37,809 nucleotides of DNA. Origin: a virus. Shown here piece after piece: positions 3,153 to 30,225 of the stretch; the first letter of the stretch is position 1; each line of letters opens with the position of its first letter. The notes beneath the pieces are model-generated. The model was not told the origin of the DNA. It did no database searches and saw only the letters and a list, made by a program, of their open reading frames with translations. Position numbers and translations under genes: made by a program. The DNA lies in IMG/VR virus record IMGVR_UViG_3300003635_000010, positions 1 through 37,809 of that record, one strand, 5' to 3'.

Positions 3153-3848
3153 CTACGGCATGGGTACGCCAGCACGCTCGGGGAGCGACCCGAACCATGC
3201 GTCGTGCGTGGTGACACCACCTCGGCTGGTGTCGAACACGACCCACTGCGTCATGAACCGCGACCCGAACTCGTCGGACACCGGAAGGTCGTCCAGTTGT
3301 GACACCTGATTGAGGTACTTCTCGGGGACGACACCGGTGTATATGTCGTCCTTCTCGATGCCGAGGAACTGGCTCACGTGCGTGTCGATACAGGCCATGT
3401 GAGGCACACCGAGTTTCGCAAGTGCGTAGGCACCCTTCGCCATGCCGACACCCATGAACTCGTCGTTGATGGCACCGAGTGCGTCGGCGTACTGTTCGGA
3501 CTCGATACACCGAATAACGCGGTCTGCGTCGGACTCCGAGAGGTTGTATAGGATGTACTTGGCCTTGTTGTTACAGTAGTTGACACCACTGTTCCGTAAC
3601 ACGTCGGCCAGCCCGTCCTGCTCACGTGCGCTGGTTTCGAGGACGTTGAGATAGCCCGCTTCGTGCTTGTTCACAGCGGTCTGCGTCGAGATGAGAGCGA
3701 ACGTCGTTGCCTGCTGGAGCATGATGCGCTGGAGCATCCTGTCAGCATCGAGGAACGCCTCTCGGGTTTCACGGACCGACTGCTCGATGCTGTCGTACAC
3801 GTCGCTTTGCTGGCGGTACTGCGCTAACGGCGTCAGGTCTTGCGCCAT
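3153..3848 (-). CDS. HhH-GPD-type DNA glycosylase-like protein (copy 1), 231 aa
   Basis: The order of motifs resembles the endonuclease III/OGG fold: FALISTQTA (50-58), a Gln-containing helix start; GVNYCNNKAKYI (88-99); hairpin MGVGMAKGAYAL (132-143) with Lys 138; and CIDTHVSQFLG (153-163), where Asp 155 matches the catalytic Asp of that superfamily. The C-terminus QWVVFDT...HDAWF is specific to this group. A base-excision or base-recognition role is inferred; Lys 138 is offset by one from the endonuclease III lysine. I chose the ATG at 3848, 23 bases from the TATA box; the upstream MPDP start lies inside the promoter. A clear paralogue is at 7649-8356. Confidence 0.5.
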   Translation of the reverse strand: MAQDLTPLAQYRQQSDVYDSIEQSVRETREAFLDADRMLQRIMLQQATTFALISTQTAVNKHEAGYLNVLETSAREQDGLADVLRNSGVNYCNNKAKYILYNLSESDADRVIRCIESEQYADALGAINDEFMGVGMAKGAYALAKLGVPHMACIDTHVSQFLGIEKDDIYTGVVPEKYLNQVSQLDDLPVSDEFGSRFMTQWVVFDTSRGGVTTHDAWFGSLPERAGVPMP

Positions 3849-3958
3849 ACCTGTACATGGGTCGGGCATCACTTAGTTGTTTCGCTTCGGTATCCGAGGC
3901 ATAACTGAGAGTTATGATGCGGACCGACGGCCCGCTCCGGATCATTACTCAGAAGAAT
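3849..3958 (-). promoter_or_regulatory. promoter cassette for glycosylase-like copy 1
   Basis: The BRE is GCGAAAC with a weak TATA-like ACTAAG at 3871-3878. Dyad 1 is at 3893-3923 (perfect core ATAACTGAGAGTTAT) and dyad 2 at 3936-3958 with a decayed right arm (AGAAGAAT). The spacing to the TATA is again about 33 bp. Confidence 0.7.
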
Positions 3959-6483: not shown

Positions 6484-7005
6484 TCAACCGAACAGTTCGC
6501 CGAGTCCTTCCTCCTCCTGCTCGTCTTCGTCCTCGTCTTCCTCGTCGTCAGCGAACAGTTCCTCCAGGTTCGTGCTGTCGTCGTCCTGCTCCATCTCCTC
6601 CATCTCCTCCTCGACCTCATCGATGGCCTCCTCGACCTCCTCGTCGTCCGTGACTTCGTCGTCCGGAATCGCGTAGCTCTCCCCGGTGTAGTCTTTTCGA
6701 CCACCGTCTTCGGGCGACCACGAGTTTCCGGTCGGTTCCATCTCGACACTGACCGAGTCGCCAGCTTCGATGTTACCGAAGTCCCGAATCTCGGACGGAA
6801 TCGTGATACACGACGATGCCGTCACGAACGCCGTGAACTCCATCGCTTCGGTCGGTCCCTCCGGGGTTTCGACCCGAGTCTGGACCTCCTGGTTGTAGCA
6901 CGACCCGACATGGTTCGCCTGGAACCGCGCGGGGACGTGAATCGTACCGTTACTTGAAACAGCCAGTTCCTCCGCGACCGTAACGTCTTGGGTGCTATCT
7001 CCCAT
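6484..7005 (-). CDS. AbrB/SpoVT-like protein with acidic tail, 173 aa
   Basis: Two segments resemble half-repeats of swapped-hairpin AbrB domains: VSSNGTIHVPARFQ (about 16-29) and CITIPSEIRDFGNIEAGDSVSVEM (about 71-94), the latter matching the family pattern IP-x-x-IR...GI-x-x-GD-x-v-x-v. After residue 125 the protein is almost only Asp and Glu. AbrB proteins bind DNA as dimers, so this is a candidate regulator of the viral promoters; the acidic tail could be a DNA mimic or a halophilic adaptation. It has its own complex upstream region. The domain call is moderately sure, the role is inference. Confidence 0.5.
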   Translation of the reverse strand: MGDSTQDVTVAEELAVSSNGTIHVPARFQANHVGSCYNQEVQTRVETPEGPTEAMEFTAFVTASSCITIPSEIRDFGNIEAGDSVSVEMEPTGNSWSPEDGGRKDYTGESYAIPDDEVTDDEEVEEAIDEVEEEMEEMEQDDDSTNLEELFADDEEDEDEDEQEEEGLGELFG

Positions 7006-7160
7006 TGCAATTAATTCATGGAGCCGGTCACGTATAAACTTGTCGCTATAACTATCAGTTATTACGTCGATTCGTGTAACTACATCGACTAATTAGCTGA
7101 CGTAATGAATATGAGTCAGCGTTATGATGCGGACCGATCCGCTGTCGCTCCGGATCATAA
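7006..7160 (-). promoter_or_regulatory. expanded promoter region of the AbrB-like gene
   Basis: TATA TTTATAC is at 7032-7039. A perfect dyad core ATAACTATCAGTTAT is at 7048-7062. Instead of the usual cassette there follow about 40 AT-rich bases, then the left copy of a 45-bp inverted repeat (7089-7133) ending in the usual GATGCGGA, and dyad 2 from 7149. Several operator-like half-sites are therefore stacked upstream of a putative regulator. Confidence 0.6.
7089..7133. repeat. left copy of 45-bp inverted repeat
   Basis: Its reverse complement matches 8408-8452 at 40 of 45 positions, with only one mismatch in the inner 33. Each copy is itself a dyad (GCTGAC ... GTCAGC, 13 bases apart). The pair encloses the AT-rich endonuclease/glycosylase island. 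Confidence 0.75.
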
Positions 7161-7610
7161 CTATGAATTATCCTCTATTACTTCTATCCAGTCCTTTTTA
7201 CCAGAACCAAAGTCATTTATTTCTGCCGATCGGCGTACTATTTCCTTCATCCCTTCTTTGGACTTTATCAGTTCACTTTTATCATCTCTCAGATCACACC
7301 ATTTCTCAAAAGAATCAGATTTTGCTGAACTATCCCATAACTCGCCACTGCTTGACCTAATGAGGGATTCGAGTTTGTTACAACTATCGACAGAGGTAAC
7401 TTCCCATCGCACTAAACCACTATTATCATATTCGTGGATATTTCCGATACCAGTCTGAGATTTCACCGTATGTAGCGTTTCACTATCATCTATATGTAGA
7501 TCAAGGGTAAACTGTGGTCGGGCCTGTACACCAAACCTATTCCGTTCTCTCTCATAGAGGGCCATCTGAAAACAACCCTCACCAATTATTAGACCGATTA
7601 CTTGTTTCAT
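7161..7610 (-). CDS. LAGLIDADG-type homing endonuclease, free-standing, 149 aa
   Basis: Residues 4-15 (VIGLIIGEGCFQ) match the LAGLIDADG core with an acidic Gly-Glu-Gly pair; then come FTLDLHIDDSETL and a GIGNIHEY segment typical of single-motif family members, which act as homodimers. The gene is strongly AT-rich compared with its neighbours, a mark of recent transfer. A TTTAAG TATA box about 25 bases before ATG 7610 gives it its own promoter. The stop TAG lies inside dyad 2 of the adjacent cassette. Confidence 0.8.
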   Translation of the reverse strand: MKQVIGLIIGEGCFQMALYERERNRFGVQARPQFTLDLHIDDSETLHTVKSQTGIGNIHEYDNSGLVRWEVTSVDSCNKLESLIRSSSGELWDSSAKSDSFEKWCDLRDDKSELIKSKEGMKEIVRRSAEINDFGSGKKDWIEVIEDNS

Positions 7611-7648
7611 GTGTGCATTTAATACTTACACACACTTAAATCTTTTGA

Positions 7649-8356
7649 TTAGTATTCTGATAGTCCTGTTTGTCTCCCAAACGAGCTTCCGGGCAACATT
7701 ACTTCAAACCACTCCTCATGTTTTGCAACACCTTCACTTCTATTGGTGTCGAAACATACCCACTGAAACATAAAAGTAGAGAGCCTTTCCGAAAGATTCT
7801 TGTACTCACCTTTTGCTATTTCTATTGCTTCACGATACTCACTAACTGACTTGTAGTCTTTGGCTTTCACGCGGTCGTCCGGAATCATTTGGGCCATATT
7901 AGTGTCGATACACATCACGTCTTTGAAACCGAGCATGGCCGGAATGAACGGGGCCTTGATGTACGACACACCGGCTAACTCGTCGGCCATCAGTTCGACG
8001 GCTTCCCACACATTGCCGGTTTTGAGTCGGAAGATGATGTCGTCGCCCGTGTCACTGAAAATCGTGTCGAAGTTCGACCGTATGTAGTCGAATTTGTTGT
8101 TTCCGTAGTTGACACCTCTCATCACTTCCCGCAATTCGTCCCACGTGTCGGCATTGCAGTATCCGCGAAATGCTCGGCGAAGGATTGAAATGTCGTTTTG
8201 GACCGACATAACCGCGAAGACACTGCTATCGAATAGCATCACTTTTTGGGTGAACCTATCAGCAGATAGGAACGACTCCCGAAGCGTATCCAATTCACGG
8301 CTAATCGTATCGTAGGTATCCTGGTATCGCTCGTAGTGTCGGAACGGGTCGGCCAT
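7649..8356 (-). CDS. HhH-GPD-type glycosylase-like protein (copy 2), 235 aa
   Basis: It aligns by eye along its whole length with the 3153-3848 product: FAVMSVQ (47-53), GVNYGNNKFDYI (81-92), AGVSYIKAPF (128-137) with Lys 134, CIDTN (149-153) with Asp 151, and QWVCFDT...HEEWF. The hairpin lacks the second Gly and the residue after DT is Asn instead of His, so activity may differ. The last ~70 codons (7649-7860) are much more AT-rich than the first part, as if the 3' end was replaced together with the adjacent endonuclease. Start 8356 follows the TATA box by about 31 bases. Confidence 0.5.
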   Translation of the reverse strand: MADPFRHYERYQDTYDTISRELDTLRESFLSADRFTQKVMLFDSSVFAVMSVQNDISILRRAFRGYCNADTWDELREVMRGVNYGNNKFDYIRSNFDTIFSDTGDDIIFRLKTGNVWEAVELMADELAGVSYIKAPFIPAMLGFKDVMCIDTNMAQMIPDDRVKAKDYKSVSEYREAIEIAKGEYKNLSERLSTFMFQWVCFDTNRSEGVAKHEEWFEVMLPGSSFGRQTGLSEY

Positions 8357-8530
8357 TGTTACACTCGAATAGTGGGTCGACGTACGGATAAACCTTTCGT
8401 CTCGGTGTCCGGAGGATTACGCTGACTCATATTCATTAAGTCAGCTAATTAGTCAATCTTGATTGACGTAATAACGCTGAGTTATGATGCGGACCGACAG
8501 CGGTCGCTCCGGATGATAACTGACAAAAAT
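8357..8530 (-). promoter_or_regulatory. expanded promoter cassette for glycosylase-like copy 2
   Basis: TATA TTTATCC is at 8387-8394. The dyad 1 position is occupied by the right copy of the 45-bp inverted repeat (8408-8452). A further half (ATAACGCTGAGTTAT, GATGCGGA) follows at 8471-8493, and dyad 2 is at 8508-8530. It looks like a normal cassette split by about 60 extra bases. Confidence 0.6.
8408..8452. repeat. right copy of 45-bp inverted repeat
   Basis: It is the inverted partner of 7089-7133. It carries GCTGAC and GTCAGC arms around an AT-rich centre. The arms replace the normal cassette dyad at both ends of the island. Confidence 0.75.
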
Positions 8531-8612
8531 AAAAGCGACGACGCCGGTGGCTCCTACTCGAATTTAGACGACTCGCCTCACGGCTACGTCGTCGATTTAA
8601 GTGACCCGATGG

Positions 8613-10401: not shown

Positions 10402-10534
10402 TGCAACCTATGCTTGTACTGGGACCCGTAAGTATCTTTCGCTTCGGTGTCCGGATGATAACTGGTGGTTAATAACTGACGATTATAATGCGGACCGACG
10501 GCAGCAGTCGCTCCGCACAATAACCGTGAGTTAT
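10402..10534 (-). promoter_or_regulatory. promoter cassette with duplicated dyad 1
   Basis: BRE GCGAAAG and TATA ATACTTAC are at 10,428-10,441. Dyad 1 is doubled head to tail: ATAACTGGTGGTTA is followed directly by ATAACTGACGATTAT (10,450-10,494). Dyad 2 is at 10,512-10,534. An A10 run at 10,539-10,548 is the T-tract of the next upstream gene. Confidence 0.7.
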
Positions 10535-13477: not shown

Positions 13478-13601
13478 TTGGGTAGTGGGGAGACACCCTT
13501 AAGTATCTGTCGCTTCGGACTCCGCATCATAACTCGTGGTTAATAACTGGCGGTTATGATGCCGACCGGGGCCGTCGCTCCGGATCATAACCAGCAGTAA
13601 T
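13478..13601 (-). promoter_or_regulatory. promoter cassette with duplicated dyad 1
   Basis: BRE GCGAC and TATA ACTTAAGG are at 13,496-13,505. Two overlapping dyads ATAACTCGTGGTTA and ATAACTGGCGGTTAT occupy 13,521-13,564. Dyad 2 is at 13,579-13,601. It is the same duplication type as at 10.45 kb. Confidence 0.7.
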
Positions 13602-14078: not shown

Positions 14079-14222
14079 TCAGATAAGACCGCTGAGCGGA
14101 TTGTCGTGCTCACACGGGAAATCGCCGTCCACTTCAGTCTTGTTGCCACACGGACAAATCGGATGTCCGAATTGGTCTTGAGTGAATCCTTCGGGTAACA
14201 TGCTTTCGGGAATGTCGACCAT
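14079..14222 (-). CDS. small zinc-binding protein, 47 aa
   Basis: MVDIPESMLPEGFTQDQFGH leads into PICPCGNKTEVDGDFPCEHD, where CPC, Cys and His can form one zinc site. ATG 14,222 has the leader ATTGTTACACTCGAATAGTG also seen upstream of the 8356 gene and lies about 28 bases from TATA CTTAAG. It is first of a two-gene operon with the membrane micropeptide. Confidence 0.6.
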   Translation of the reverse strand: MVDIPESMLPEGFTQDQFGHPICPCGNKTEVDGDFPCEHDNPLSGLI

Positions 14223-14643: not shown

Positions 14644-14829
14644 TGCAAATAGAGAGTAGGGTGGCATACGTATAAGGCTTGCGGTATTGTCTCCGCACAA
14701 TAACTCAGAGTTATGATGCGGATCGGCAGATCGATCAATCCCCGACCTTCGCCCGTGTCCGAGCCCATAACTGTCAGTTATGATGCGGAGCGACCGCTGC
14801 CGTCGGTCCGCATTATAACCGAGAGTTAT
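14644..14829 (-). promoter_or_regulatory. long promoter cassette with three dyads
   Basis: TATA TATAC is at 14,669-14,676. Dyads lie at 14,692-14,722, 14,758-14,789 (ATAACTGTCAGTTAT) and 14,807-14,829 (ATAACCGAGAGTTAT). Between the first two are about 35 unrelated bases, as if two cassettes were joined after loss of the gene between them. The A10 run at 14,841-14,850 is the T-tract ending the upstream gene. Confidence 0.7.
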
Positions 14830-14863
14830 CAAGCAAACCGAAAAAAAAAACTGCCACCCCACC

Positions 14864-15238
14864 CTACTCCAGAGTGGAGTGGTGTTCCATTTCGTGCTCA
14901 CACAGATCGCACGTCTTCGACTCTGCATAGTCGCCTGCCAGCGTCTGCGACCAGTGAGTCCGCGCTCGGTCGTATCCACACTCCGGGCACTCGTCGCCGT
15001 CGTGGAGTTGCACGACTCTCGTGATCTGCTTGACCACGTCGCCGTTGTGCGTTCGACTGATCTTCACGTCTGCGATCCACGCTTCGCGGTTCGAGTTAGG
15101 TTCCACGACAGGCAGTTCTCCGTGTCGGTCCAGTCGCTTCAGTGCGTCCGCACGACTGAAGACTCCGTCGTGATCAGCGTCGAGGCAGTTGATACATTCG
15201 GTTCGCTCGTCGTCAGTGAGTCCGTAGCCGGTTGCCAT
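14864..15238 (-). CDS. protein with EF-hand-like loop and zinc ribbon, 124 aa
   Basis: Residues about 20-31 (DADHDGVFSRAD) fit the EF-hand calcium-loop pattern D-x-D-x-D-G-x-hydrophobic-x-x-x-D. The C-terminal half has CPECGYDRARTHW and CDLCEHEMEHH, a zinc ribbon with extra His. The gene is not driven by a dyad cassette but by the 41-bp operator shared with the XRE gene, so it is probably a target of that repressor. The combination is unfamiliar to me. Confidence 0.6.
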   Translation of the reverse strand: MATGYGLTDDERTECINCLDADHDGVFSRADALKRLDRHGELPVVEPNSNREAWIADVKISRTHNGDVVKQITRVVQLHDGDECPECGYDRARTHWSQTLAGDYAESKTCDLCEHEMEHHSTLE

Positions 15239-15239
15239 T

Positions 15240-15280
15240 GGTAACGCCGGACTGGGTCATTCTATCGTCACCAGTCCGGT
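15240..15280 (-). promoter_or_regulatory. operator/promoter, copy 1 of a 41-bp repeat
   Basis: It is identical over 41 bases to 15,646-15,686. Inverted arms CCGGACTGG (15,247-15,255) and CCAGTCCGG (15,271-15,279) flank a TATA-like GATAGAATG about 25 bases before ATG 15,238. A protein on the arms would block TBP/TFB. Confidence 0.75.
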
Positions 15281-15292
15281 ATCGTTCCAACT

Positions 15293-15455: not shown

Positions 15456-15644
15456 TTACGACTGGGCCTTGTTGATTTCGAGGGCGATTTTCCGGACCGT
15501 CGACAGGGTCGGGTCGTTGTTACCCGACTCAATCTGTGAGAGTGCGGGTTGACTGATTCCGACTCTGTCCGCGAGGGCGCTTTGCGACAGGTTAGCTTCT
15601 TTCCGTCCGGTACGCAGTTCGTTGGGGGTTGGCACGTCTATCAT
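15456..15644 (-). CDS. XRE/Cro-family helix-turn-helix repressor-like protein, 62 aa
   Basis: The whole protein is one HTH_3 domain: ELRTGRKEANLSQSALADRV (about 9-28) then GISQPALSQIESGNNDPTLS, with the recognition helix around SQPALSQIE. At 62 residues it is a minimal Cro-like domain with no effector region. Its start lies directly behind a 41-bp operator whose arms flank the putative TATA box, which implies autorepression, and the same operator precedes the 15,238 gene. It could be the switch protein of this virus. Confidence 0.8.
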   Translation of the reverse strand: MIDVPTPNELRTGRKEANLSQSALADRVGISQPALSQIESGNNDPTLSTVRKIALEINKAQS

Positions 15645-15645
15645 C

Positions 15646-15686
15646 GGTAACGCCGGACTGGGTCATTCTATCGTCACCAGTCCGGT
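15646..15686 (-). promoter_or_regulatory. operator/promoter, copy 2 of a 41-bp repeat
   Basis: Arms CCGGACTGG (15,653-15,661) and CCAGTCCGG (15,677-15,685) with the same 15-base AT-richer spacer as copy 1. It lies immediately before the XRE start codon at 15,644. Outside the 41 bases the two copies differ, so the identity is constrained. Confidence 0.75.
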
Positions 15687-15698
15687 TACGTCCCGAAG

Positions 15699-17126: not shown

Positions 17127-17927
17127 ATGGGTAATTGGAATTATCGTGATAAATCGGACCTCGAAGAACTCTATATAGATCAGGATCTCACGCAGAAAGA
17201 GATGGCTGATAGAATGGGGGTTTCGGATGGAACAATATCACAATGGATGCAGAGGTACAACATACAAACTGGTAACAGTAAGTGGGCAAAGATTGGTGAA
17301 GACGAAATAGAAGAATTGTATAAACCAGAGCAGTCGTTCTCGGATATGGCTGAGGGGACCGAATATAATAGGGATCAAATTAGAAATGCTTCGATACGGC
17401 ATGATTTACACGATCCGAGAAGAATAGATGATGTTGTTTACACAGACGAGGAGTTGCTCGAACAGATAGAAAACGTTAAATCAGAATACGGATATGTTTC
17501 GAAAAGGCTATTTGAGTCACTTGATGATACAGCAACAGTGAGTGCTATAAGGGATCACTTTGGATCGTGGTTTGATGGCATAAAAAGATCATCAGTTGAA
17601 CCAACAGATGCTCAGATTACGGGCGGAAAATCGACATCGGGAAAATGTGACGAGCGCCCGCACGAAAATCCGAGAGGGTCCCATAGTAAATACAGGTATG
17701 TGAGAAACAAGGTACTCAATCGAGATGATCACGAATGCCAAGTCTGTGGTAAAAATCCATCATCTGATGATGTAGAAATGCTCCATACACACCACATCGA
17801 AGCAGTATCATCATTTGAAGATCCAAACGATTCACATACTACAGATAACCTGATTACACTATGTAAAACGCACCATAATCTTGTCGAGAGAAATGATATA
17901 GACTGTCCAGAACCACCCCAATCCTGA
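17127..17927 (+). CDS. HNH homing endonuclease with N-terminal HTH, 266 aa
   Basis: Residues about 10-45 form a helix-turn-helix (LTQKEMADRMGVSDGTISQW), followed by a second HTH-like repeat, then a C-terminal HNH domain (about 200-253): CQVCGKN, HTHHIEAVSSF, DNLITLCKTHHN. Such HTH-HNH proteins cut specific sites and spread with their genes. It is far more AT-rich than its surroundings, indicating transfer. ATG 17,127 is 23 bases from a TTTATATAG TATA box, so it is leaderless. Confidence 0.85.
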   Translation: MGNWNYRDKSDLEELYIDQDLTQKEMADRMGVSDGTISQWMQRYNIQTGNSKWAKIGEDEIEELYKPEQSFSDMAEGTEYNRDQIRNASIRHDLHDPRRIDDVVYTDEELLEQIENVKSEYGYVSKRLFESLDDTATVSAIRDHFGSWFDGIKRSSVEPTDAQITGGKSTSGKCDERPHENPRGSHSKYRYVRNKVLNRDDHECQVCGKNPSSDDVEMLHTHHIEAVSSFEDPNDSHTTDNLITLCKTHHNLVERNDIDCPEPPQS

Positions 17928-19579: not shown

Positions 19580-20362
19580 ATGATGACTACTGACGAACCA
19601 GTCGTGGAGAGTGACGGGCACGTCACATGCCACGAATGTGAATCGACGTACGAACGGCCTGGATACCACTGGAGCAATGGATCGTGCCAGTACCCCGAGA
19701 TGCCAGACGACAAATCGTCTCTCGTTCTTGGGCTCATGCTTGGTGATGGAACACTACGCACGCACACGTCCGACCCGTTCGTTCAGACGTACATGATCAA
19801 CGAGGAGTTTCTGGAGTGGATCGATGGCGAACTCGAATGGCTCTCGACCGGCGTCTCTCTGTATCGAACAGCAGAGCGTAGTGCGAGCCTAAGTCGGGAT
19901 AATGGACATCCCGATGCAGTCGAGGAGAATTACCACGATGTGTATGTTATGCAGACGCGCACGATGCCTCAGTTTCAACGATATGAGTCGTGGTACGCGA
20001 ACAGTGAGCGTAAACGGTTTCCCGACGGGCTGGTACTCTCCCCGATCGAAGCGAAGGTGTGGTACGCATGTGATGGGTCCCTCAACTGGGACCGGCGCTA
20101 CCCTAATTCACGGCCACACGCGACCATCGGCGTCCGGAGCGAGATGGACGATATTGGGAAAGTATTATCCATGTTTTCCGAGAGCACCTTTGGCACGACG
20201 CCACGTGTGGACGAAAACACGATTCGGTTCTCCGTGGACGAAACGGAGGACTTTCTGGACTGGATGGGCGAGTCACCGCCTGGATTCGAATACAAGTGGA
20301 CGATGTCAAGTTTGGACGACTACGAGGAGCAGAAAGCAGTGGATCTCGGCGATTCAACTTAA
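19580..20362 (+). CDS. LAGLIDADG homing endonuclease with zinc finger, 260 aa
   Basis: A CHECESTYERPGYHWSNGSC finger (17-36) precedes the first motif LVLGLMLGDGTL (48-59); a second motif-like AKVWYACDGSL is at 158-168, each with the acidic metal ligand (Asp 56, Asp 165). Length fits a two-motif monomeric enzyme. It lies between the TFB-like gene and the small terminase gene. Unlike the other endonuclease genes its composition matches the genome, suggesting older residence. A TTATATG box is 15 bases upstream. Confidence 0.8.
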   Translation: MMTTDEPVVESDGHVTCHECESTYERPGYHWSNGSCQYPEMPDDKSSLVLGLMLGDGTLRTHTSDPFVQTYMINEEFLEWIDGELEWLSTGVSLYRTAERSASLSRDNGHPDAVEENYHDVYVMQTRTMPQFQRYESWYANSERKRFPDGLVLSPIEAKVWYACDGSLNWDRRYPNSRPHATIGVRSEMDDIGKVLSMFSESTFGTTPRVDENTIRFSVDETEDFLDWMGESPPGFEYKWTMSSLDDYEEQKAVDLGDST

Positions 20363-29628: not shown

Positions 29629-30225
29629 ATGATAGAGATATCTTGTGACTGGTGTGGAGGATCTACTGAGAAGTATCAGTCCAATATCACTGAAAACAAC
29701 TTTTGTGGGAGATCATGCTATAATGGGTGGAATGCGGAGCAAAAATCAGGTAATGGAAACCCGATGTGGGATGGTGGCAAAGAAGTTGTTTCATGTGAAA
29801 TATGTGGTTCAGAAGTAAAGCGCGATCCATCGAGAATTGCCGAGAATAACTTCTGCTCAGAAAACTGTCGCCTTGAGTGGTTTGAGGAAGAACATGGCCA
29901 AGATTGGCCAATTCTGAAGGGAGAAGATAATCCTGCATGGTCCGGCGGTTATAATGGCTACTACGGTGAAAACTGGAACGAAGAACGTCGCAAAGCACTC
30001 TATTCAGCCGAGTATAAATGCGAGCTATGTGGGCAAACTCGTGAAGAACACTATGATGAATATGAGTTCGATCTCGACGTTCATCATCGAATCCCAGTTC
30101 GGGCATTCGATGTGGTGGAAAACGCAAACTTCCAAGACAATCTGGTAGTTTGCTGCCGAAATTGTCATCAGTCGAAGCTCGAACGAGAACCTGTTCCACA
30201 CAACGACATTCGAGCACCGGCCTAA
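29629..30225 (+). CDS. HNH endonuclease with zinc fingers, 198 aa
   Basis: Two N-terminal treble-clef fingers (CDWCGG...CGRSC and CEICGS...CSENC, about 6-80), with the repeated ITENNFC/IAENNFC pattern, are followed by an HNH domain (about 125-185): CELCGQ, LDVHHRIPVRAF, DNLVVCCRNCH. It is AT-rich and lies between head genes, which is typical of a free-standing homing endonuclease; cutting site and host intein/intron are not visible. Confidence 0.85.
   Translation: MIEISCDWCGGSTEKYQSNITENNFCGRSCYNGWNAEQKSGNGNPMWDGGKEVVSCEICGSEVKRDPSRIAENNFCSENCRLEWFEEEHGQDWPILKGEDNPAWSGGYNGYYGENWNEERRKALYSAEYKCELCGQTREEHYDEYEFDLDVHHRIPVRAFDVVENANFQDNLVVCCRNCHQSKLEREPVPHNDIRAPA

Follow-up and report, generated by a model that had tools for sequence, protein, structure and literature searches.

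In phage T4, the free-standing homing endonuclease SegG is encoded beside gene 32 and co-converts it, and in T4-like systems the neighbour gene is co-converted over hundreds of base pairs from a distant cleavage site (PMC2988022). Fungal mobile ORFs supply the gene ahead of them with a replacement C-terminus, as in atp6 of Allomyces and in atp6, atp9, cox2 and nad3 of Glomus (PMC3630166). In HF2, intergenic repeats of the general kind considered below are proven promoters (PMC8707807). We compared these systems with a locus on an IMG/VR virus record, a single uncultured contig of 37,809 bases that was analysed over its whole length (the window). With modest confidence, we favour the reading that the locus holds two separate things: a homing block, made up of an endonuclease gene and the 3' end of the adjacent glycosylase gene (copy 2), and diverged inserts in two neighbouring promoters.

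Salt-loving archaea are the host class of the virus, and its terminase and capsid proteins showed 40-45% identity to those of Halogranum tailed virus 1 (HGTV-1). The left 15 kb consists of small minus-strand genes with a similar intergenic unit ahead of nearly each of them (~22-24 copies), and nearly all small genes of this early array have an individual promoter with a ATAACTnnnAGTTAT dyad. Read on the plus strand, the unit runs from a TATA box (ATAAAC) through GTCCGGAnnATAACTnnnAGTTATnATGCGGACC to a second ATAAC dyad, and in most units the TATA box lies 44-46 nt from the far half-site. The units are quasi-palindromic, and a repeated intergenic unit with TATA/BRE upstream of the genes is a halovirus-type pattern. 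In this respect the array resembles the class I/II repeats of HF2 (PMC8707807) and the dyad arrays of HGTV-1 and contig L018, all of which place a repeated BRE/TATA unit before many early genes; the promoter role is proven in HF2 and predicted here. HGTV-1 and L018 share the array design with other dyad sequences, and the HGTV-1 units lack an insert such as the one described below. This one-dyad-per-gene arrangement of the early array in HGTV-1 and contig L018 (L014, L018, L020) comes with a dyad sequence particular to each virus, and since the dyad differs virus by virus, virus-specific regulators are suggested. Farther along the contig, 53-nt direct repeats (15236-15288 and 15642-15694, 92% identical) with the dyad CCGGACTGG...CCAGTCCGG surround a small HTH_3 repressor-like gene (15456-15644, minus strand), and are probably its operators.

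The original prediction singled out two 45-bp inverted repeats, at 7089-7133 and 8408-8452, as the bounds of an island. We confirmed that 40 of the 45 positions are identical after reverse-complementing, and that the repeats enclose a LAGLIDADG_1 gene (7161-7610, minus strand) and a second Ogg-like glycosylase gene (7649-8356, minus strand). The match exceeds 45 nt: 62 nt align ungapped at 82% (7073-7134 with 8407-8468), and if a single gap of 8 nt in a loop is allowed, the match reaches from the ATAACT dyad as far as GCGGAC, giving inverted arms of ~87 nt. Inverted bracketing is no evidence for a mobile unit, because the array units are quasi-palindromic and other pairs match too. Several pairs of units formed inverted repeats comparable with the island pair or better than it; 10466-10534 and 14767-14835 agree over 69 nt at 84%, and this same pair (units 10470 and 14765) also matches in inverted orientation at 41 of 45 positions. 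The same generality bears on the proposal that a site-specific recombinase flips the segment 7100-8450 between the repeats. Arms of ~87 nt with internal dyads would suit such an invertible segment, but inverted arms occur throughout the array, both enclosed genes lie on the array's strand, and no tyrosine or serine recombinase (PF00589, PF00239) was found on the contig, which is possibly incomplete. The proposal thus found no support, and we regard inversion as very improbable.

The real anomaly of the island flanks is a shared insert, not their inverted bracketing. A 32-nt core, CTAATTAGCTGACGTAATGAATATGAGTCAGC, occurs only at 7089 (plus strand) and 8421 (minus strand, one mismatch). Anywhere else on the contig the closest match differs at 10 positions; in 20 shuffles the top matches carried 10-15 mismatches. 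An origin by chance or through misassembly is scarcely credible; the region lies on a single uncultured contig and is covered by no relative found, but an agreement of 31/32 in the core stands far from the 10-15 mismatches of the shuffles, both reading frames are intact and the predicted folds are confident. Folding of the repeat arms as single strands beat shuffled sequences mildly (z -1.3 to -2.9), so no RNA is argued for here, and no structured RNA or tRNA turned up when the repeats were searched.

The left promoter unit (7033-7172, minus strand) belongs to gene 6484-7005 and comprises a TATA box (7033-7040), an ATAAC dyad (7048-7062), the insert, the half-site GTTATGATGCGGACC and an outer dyad (7158-7172). 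The right unit (8384-8530, minus strand) belongs to glycosylase copy 2 and comprises a TATA box at ~8387, a split half-site, the insert, an intact dyad (8471-8485) and an outer dyad. The left insert (7063-7120, minus strand) is 58 nt long, reads GCTGAC...GACGTA on the minus strand and sits within the promoter dyad. The right insert (8421-8470, plus strand), within the dyad of its own unit, is the same element in the opposite orientation, and is 50 nt long. The repeats had been said to contain their own dyads, and each insert copy indeed has two hairpin stems: GCTGAC/GTCAGC and GTCGAT/ATCGAC on the left, GCTGACT/AGTCAGC and GTCAATC/GATTGAC on the right. Two such stems arose in 42 and 75 of 20,000 shuffles. 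Stem 1 is nearly unchanged between the copies, and stem 2 still pairs despite a different sequence and loop length (loop 2 has 12 nt in one copy and 2 nt in the other). Pairing kept across a sequence change is suggestive only, as the contig holds just two copies.

The normal dyads of the two units were not replaced, as had been supposed, but split by the insert, which makes both units outliers in spacing, with ~93-101 nt from the TATA box to the far half-site. Aligned to normal units, the right unit reads GTCCGGAGG-ATTAC-insert GCTGACTCATATTCATTAAGTCAGCTAATTAGTCAATCTTGATTGACGTA-ATAAC-GCTGAGTTATGATGCGGAC, and the left unit, on the other strand, GTCCGCATC-ATAAC-insert GCTGACTCATATTCATTACGTCAGCTAATTAGTCGATGTAGTTACACGAATCGACGTA-ATAAC-TGATAGTTAT. 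Deleting the insert and one ATAAC in silico restored a canonical dyad at both places, and the restored right dyad differs by a single base from those of units 8852 and 9931. ATWAC stands on both sides of the inserts; the palindromic target supplies it anyway, so with two copies a 5-bp target duplication and a site preference look the same. The opposite orientations of the inserts are natural, because the target is palindromic. The left unit has also lost ~14 nt at 7041-7062, including the TATA-proximal GTCCGGA half-site. The lengthened spacing may affect expression. Downstream of the left unit, the product of gene 6484-7005 (minus strand) could be a regulator, judging from a weak MazE/AbrB-like domain (PF04014, E 0.003, below the cut-off) and a long acidic tail.

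Small palindromic insertions are known as MITE-like elements and mitochondrial double-hairpin elements. The inserts resemble them in their length of ~50 nt, their two hairpins, their presence in two copies and their fixed target, and differ in being limited to two copies, with neither a known enzyme to mobilise them nor a proven target duplication. It is unlikely that they represent a new class of ~50-nt double-hairpin elements that spreads in archaeal viruses by entering palindromic early-promoter operators either way round, and rewires single genes of the cassette array, with a neighbouring homing endonuclease perhaps supplying the breaks for copying.

A non-mobile origin of the inserts was also considered. 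Two promoter units, 10470 (within 10430-10495) and 13541 (within 13505-13566), carry an extra 14-nt tandem ATAAC dyad at the place of the inserts, implying that this spot tolerates growth. The inserts might be extra protein-binding dyads, produced when the ATAAC dyad was copied in tandem and the copies then diverged. Recombination between quasi-palindromic units would next have copied one unit over the other in inverted register, bringing the two promoters under separate regulation. The insert is composed of short dyads, as such expanded operators would be, and the TATA box lies just downstream of both copies. HF2 offers a likeness, since in its repeat IR4.5 the gamma motif is swapped for an inverted repeat that has a single other copy in the genome (PMC8707807). 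Against this, nothing in the core recognisably points to descent from the ATAAC dyad, and relative to transcription the copies face opposite ways. On balance we judge operator expansion somewhat unlikely, and small inserts that spread into two promoters remain our preferred account of the flanks.

The gene next to the left unit (7161-7610, minus strand) encodes a single-motif LAGLIDADG homing endonuclease of 149 aa (PF00961, E 5e-11) with a GC3 of 0.34. Its AlphaFold model (pLDDT 88) has the LAGLIDADG fold and motif, and the best PDB matches were the archaeal I-TnaI and I-Vdi141I. Both of these enzymes are homodimers, and the island endonuclease is probably a homodimer as well. The gene is a separate ORF between two complete genes, outside any intron or intein, and thus free-standing. 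Its private spacer (7611-7648, minus strand; CAAAAGATTTAAGTG) lacks the dyad unit of the array, and we read it as promoter-like because of a haloarchaeal BRE/TATA pattern. The stop codon sits inside the outer dyad of the next unit, 40 nt from the left insert, and at this distance the insert could have arrived with the endonuclease tract. Cleavage of the common ATAAC dyad by the enzyme was rejected by reasoning, as the viral genome itself contains ~22 of these sites. Viral relatives of the endonuclease are free-standing and lack flanking inverted repeats; HVTV-1 gp117 is also a free-standing LAGLIDADG protein (34% aa identity), but adjoins prohead protease and capsid genes without flanking repeats. 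The contig has a further LAGLIDADG_2-like gene (19580-20362), which is of native composition.

Glycosylase copy 2 (7649-8356, minus strand; 235 aa) is predicted to adopt an HhH-GPD fold of the archaeal Ogg type, in which the catalytic Lys134 and Asp151 are retained and invariant. Profile searches matched it to archaeal Ogg structures, with a Pfam score for copy 2 alone that stayed below the cut-off, and the predicted fold (pLDDT 89) most resembled the 8-oxoguanine glycosylases of Thermotoga and archaea. Its paralogue, copy 1 (3153-3872, minus strand), shares 34% aa identity with it, which does not exceed the identity of either copy to the HGTV-1 or HATV-2 homologues. This contradicts the suggestion that the endonuclease had duplicated a cassette, and copy 2 is, by its sequence, an ancient paralogue of copy 1. 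The second 'endonuclease III' of HGTV-1 (gp212), not far from a LAGLIDADG gene, was examined as a parallel and set aside, having no sequence relation to copy 2.

Codon usage revealed a border inside copy 2. At codon 169 (position 7849), GC3 dropped from 0.68 to 0.34 (permutation p 0.0002); none of 19 other genes tested had as strong a step, their lowest p being 0.018. The log-odds of synonymous codon usage changed from -0.37 before codon 169 to +0.72 after it (+0.67 with training on the HNH genes of the contig only), against references of +0.62 for the island endonuclease and -0.38 to -0.95 for native genes. Copy 1 and three homologues showed no significant GC3 step at the matching place. Since codon usage switches at codon 169, the AT-rich block comprises 7161-7849, that is, the LAGLIDADG gene and the last 66 codons of its neighbour (7649-7849, minus strand), which have endonuclease-like codon usage. 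The last third of copy 2 thus looks imported together with the endonuclease, a foreign origin suggested by codon usage, not phylogeny. Counting against this reading, plain GC content gave an AT-rich tract at 6996-8535 that coincides with the repeats, which explains the earlier impression of a repeat-bounded island, and codons 1-169 of copy 2 are about as AT-rich as native genes become. Neither part of copy 2 clearly exceeded the other in protein identity to homologues, and tblastn found no displaced native C-terminus downstream at E up to 10. Two more AT-rich endonuclease genes, both of the HNH type, are present at 17127-17927 (GC3 0.36) and 29629-30225 (GC3 0.41); sister contig L092 has separate matches to the former at 480-941 and 1131-1586, representing two copies or one broken gene.

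The position of this border bears on the idea of a composite mobile unit, in which the endonuclease and copy 2 travel together and the repeats serve as ends or recombination arms. Just these two genes lie inside the repeats, the low-GC tract fits, and the 32-nt core is restricted to this pair. Yet the codon-usage border falls inside copy 2, whose 5' leader is typical of the array (29 nt, one mismatch to the leader at 14214). In addition, relatives of the endonuclease lack such repeats, the repeats themselves have diverged (12 against 2 nt in loop 2), and no transposase or recombinase was found. We therefore consider a composite unit quite unlikely. What stands of the original prediction is a block of mobile type, with a homing endonuclease and a foreign-looking gene end; its borders lie at ~7161 and 7849, not at the repeats. 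The repeats are probably not the ends of an endonuclease unit, and are most likely insert copies in two promoters. Searches of phages, plasmids and IMG/VR patterns, in which records close to the window may have been masked, gave no DNA relatives of the island, five IMG/VR pattern matches being chance matches. Protein scans of IMG/VR likewise found no close relatives of the endonuclease or copy 2, and scans of genome contigs found none for copy 2 either. Alignments of terminase and capsid identified sister contigs (capsid 83-95% identical), none of which extends to the array. No empty site was seen in the relatives found, which do not cover the region.

The codon-usage block fits co-conversion of a free-standing homing endonuclease and the neighbouring gene's 3' end. 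The enzyme would cut glycosylase alleles without the endonuclease gene, near or upstream of codon 169, and repair of the break would copy the endonuclease together with the adjoining glycosylase 3' end. The other end of the tract may fall in the conserved promoter unit downstream, where the repeated array would offer homology for the crossover. The inserts of 50-58 nt probably spread separately from the endonuclease, most likely by insertion of a small element or by being copied from one promoter unit to another. As with SegG and gene 32 in T4-like phages (PMC2988022), the endonuclease gene is intergenic and outside introns, but here it is of the LAGLIDADG rather than the GIY-YIG or HNH type, belongs to an archaeal virus, and has a presumed cleavage and homing activity. 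The likeness to the fungal mobile ORFs is that a LAGLIDADG gene stands right behind a host-gene 3' end of apparently different origin, fused in frame into a hybrid gene; the locus differs in having no displaced native C-terminus, and in that codon usage takes the place of phylogeny.

A note of caution follows for arrays of this kind: where all promoters are quasi-palindromic, finding a gene between inverted repeats says little. If our reading is right, this locus of an archaeal tailed virus would parallel, with a LAGLIDADG enzyme, both the neighbour-gene co-conversion of T4 and the C-terminus replacement in fungal mitochondria. It would also mean that promoter units in one-promoter-per-gene arrays can acquire hairpin inserts at a set position, which might be a source of regulatory change.
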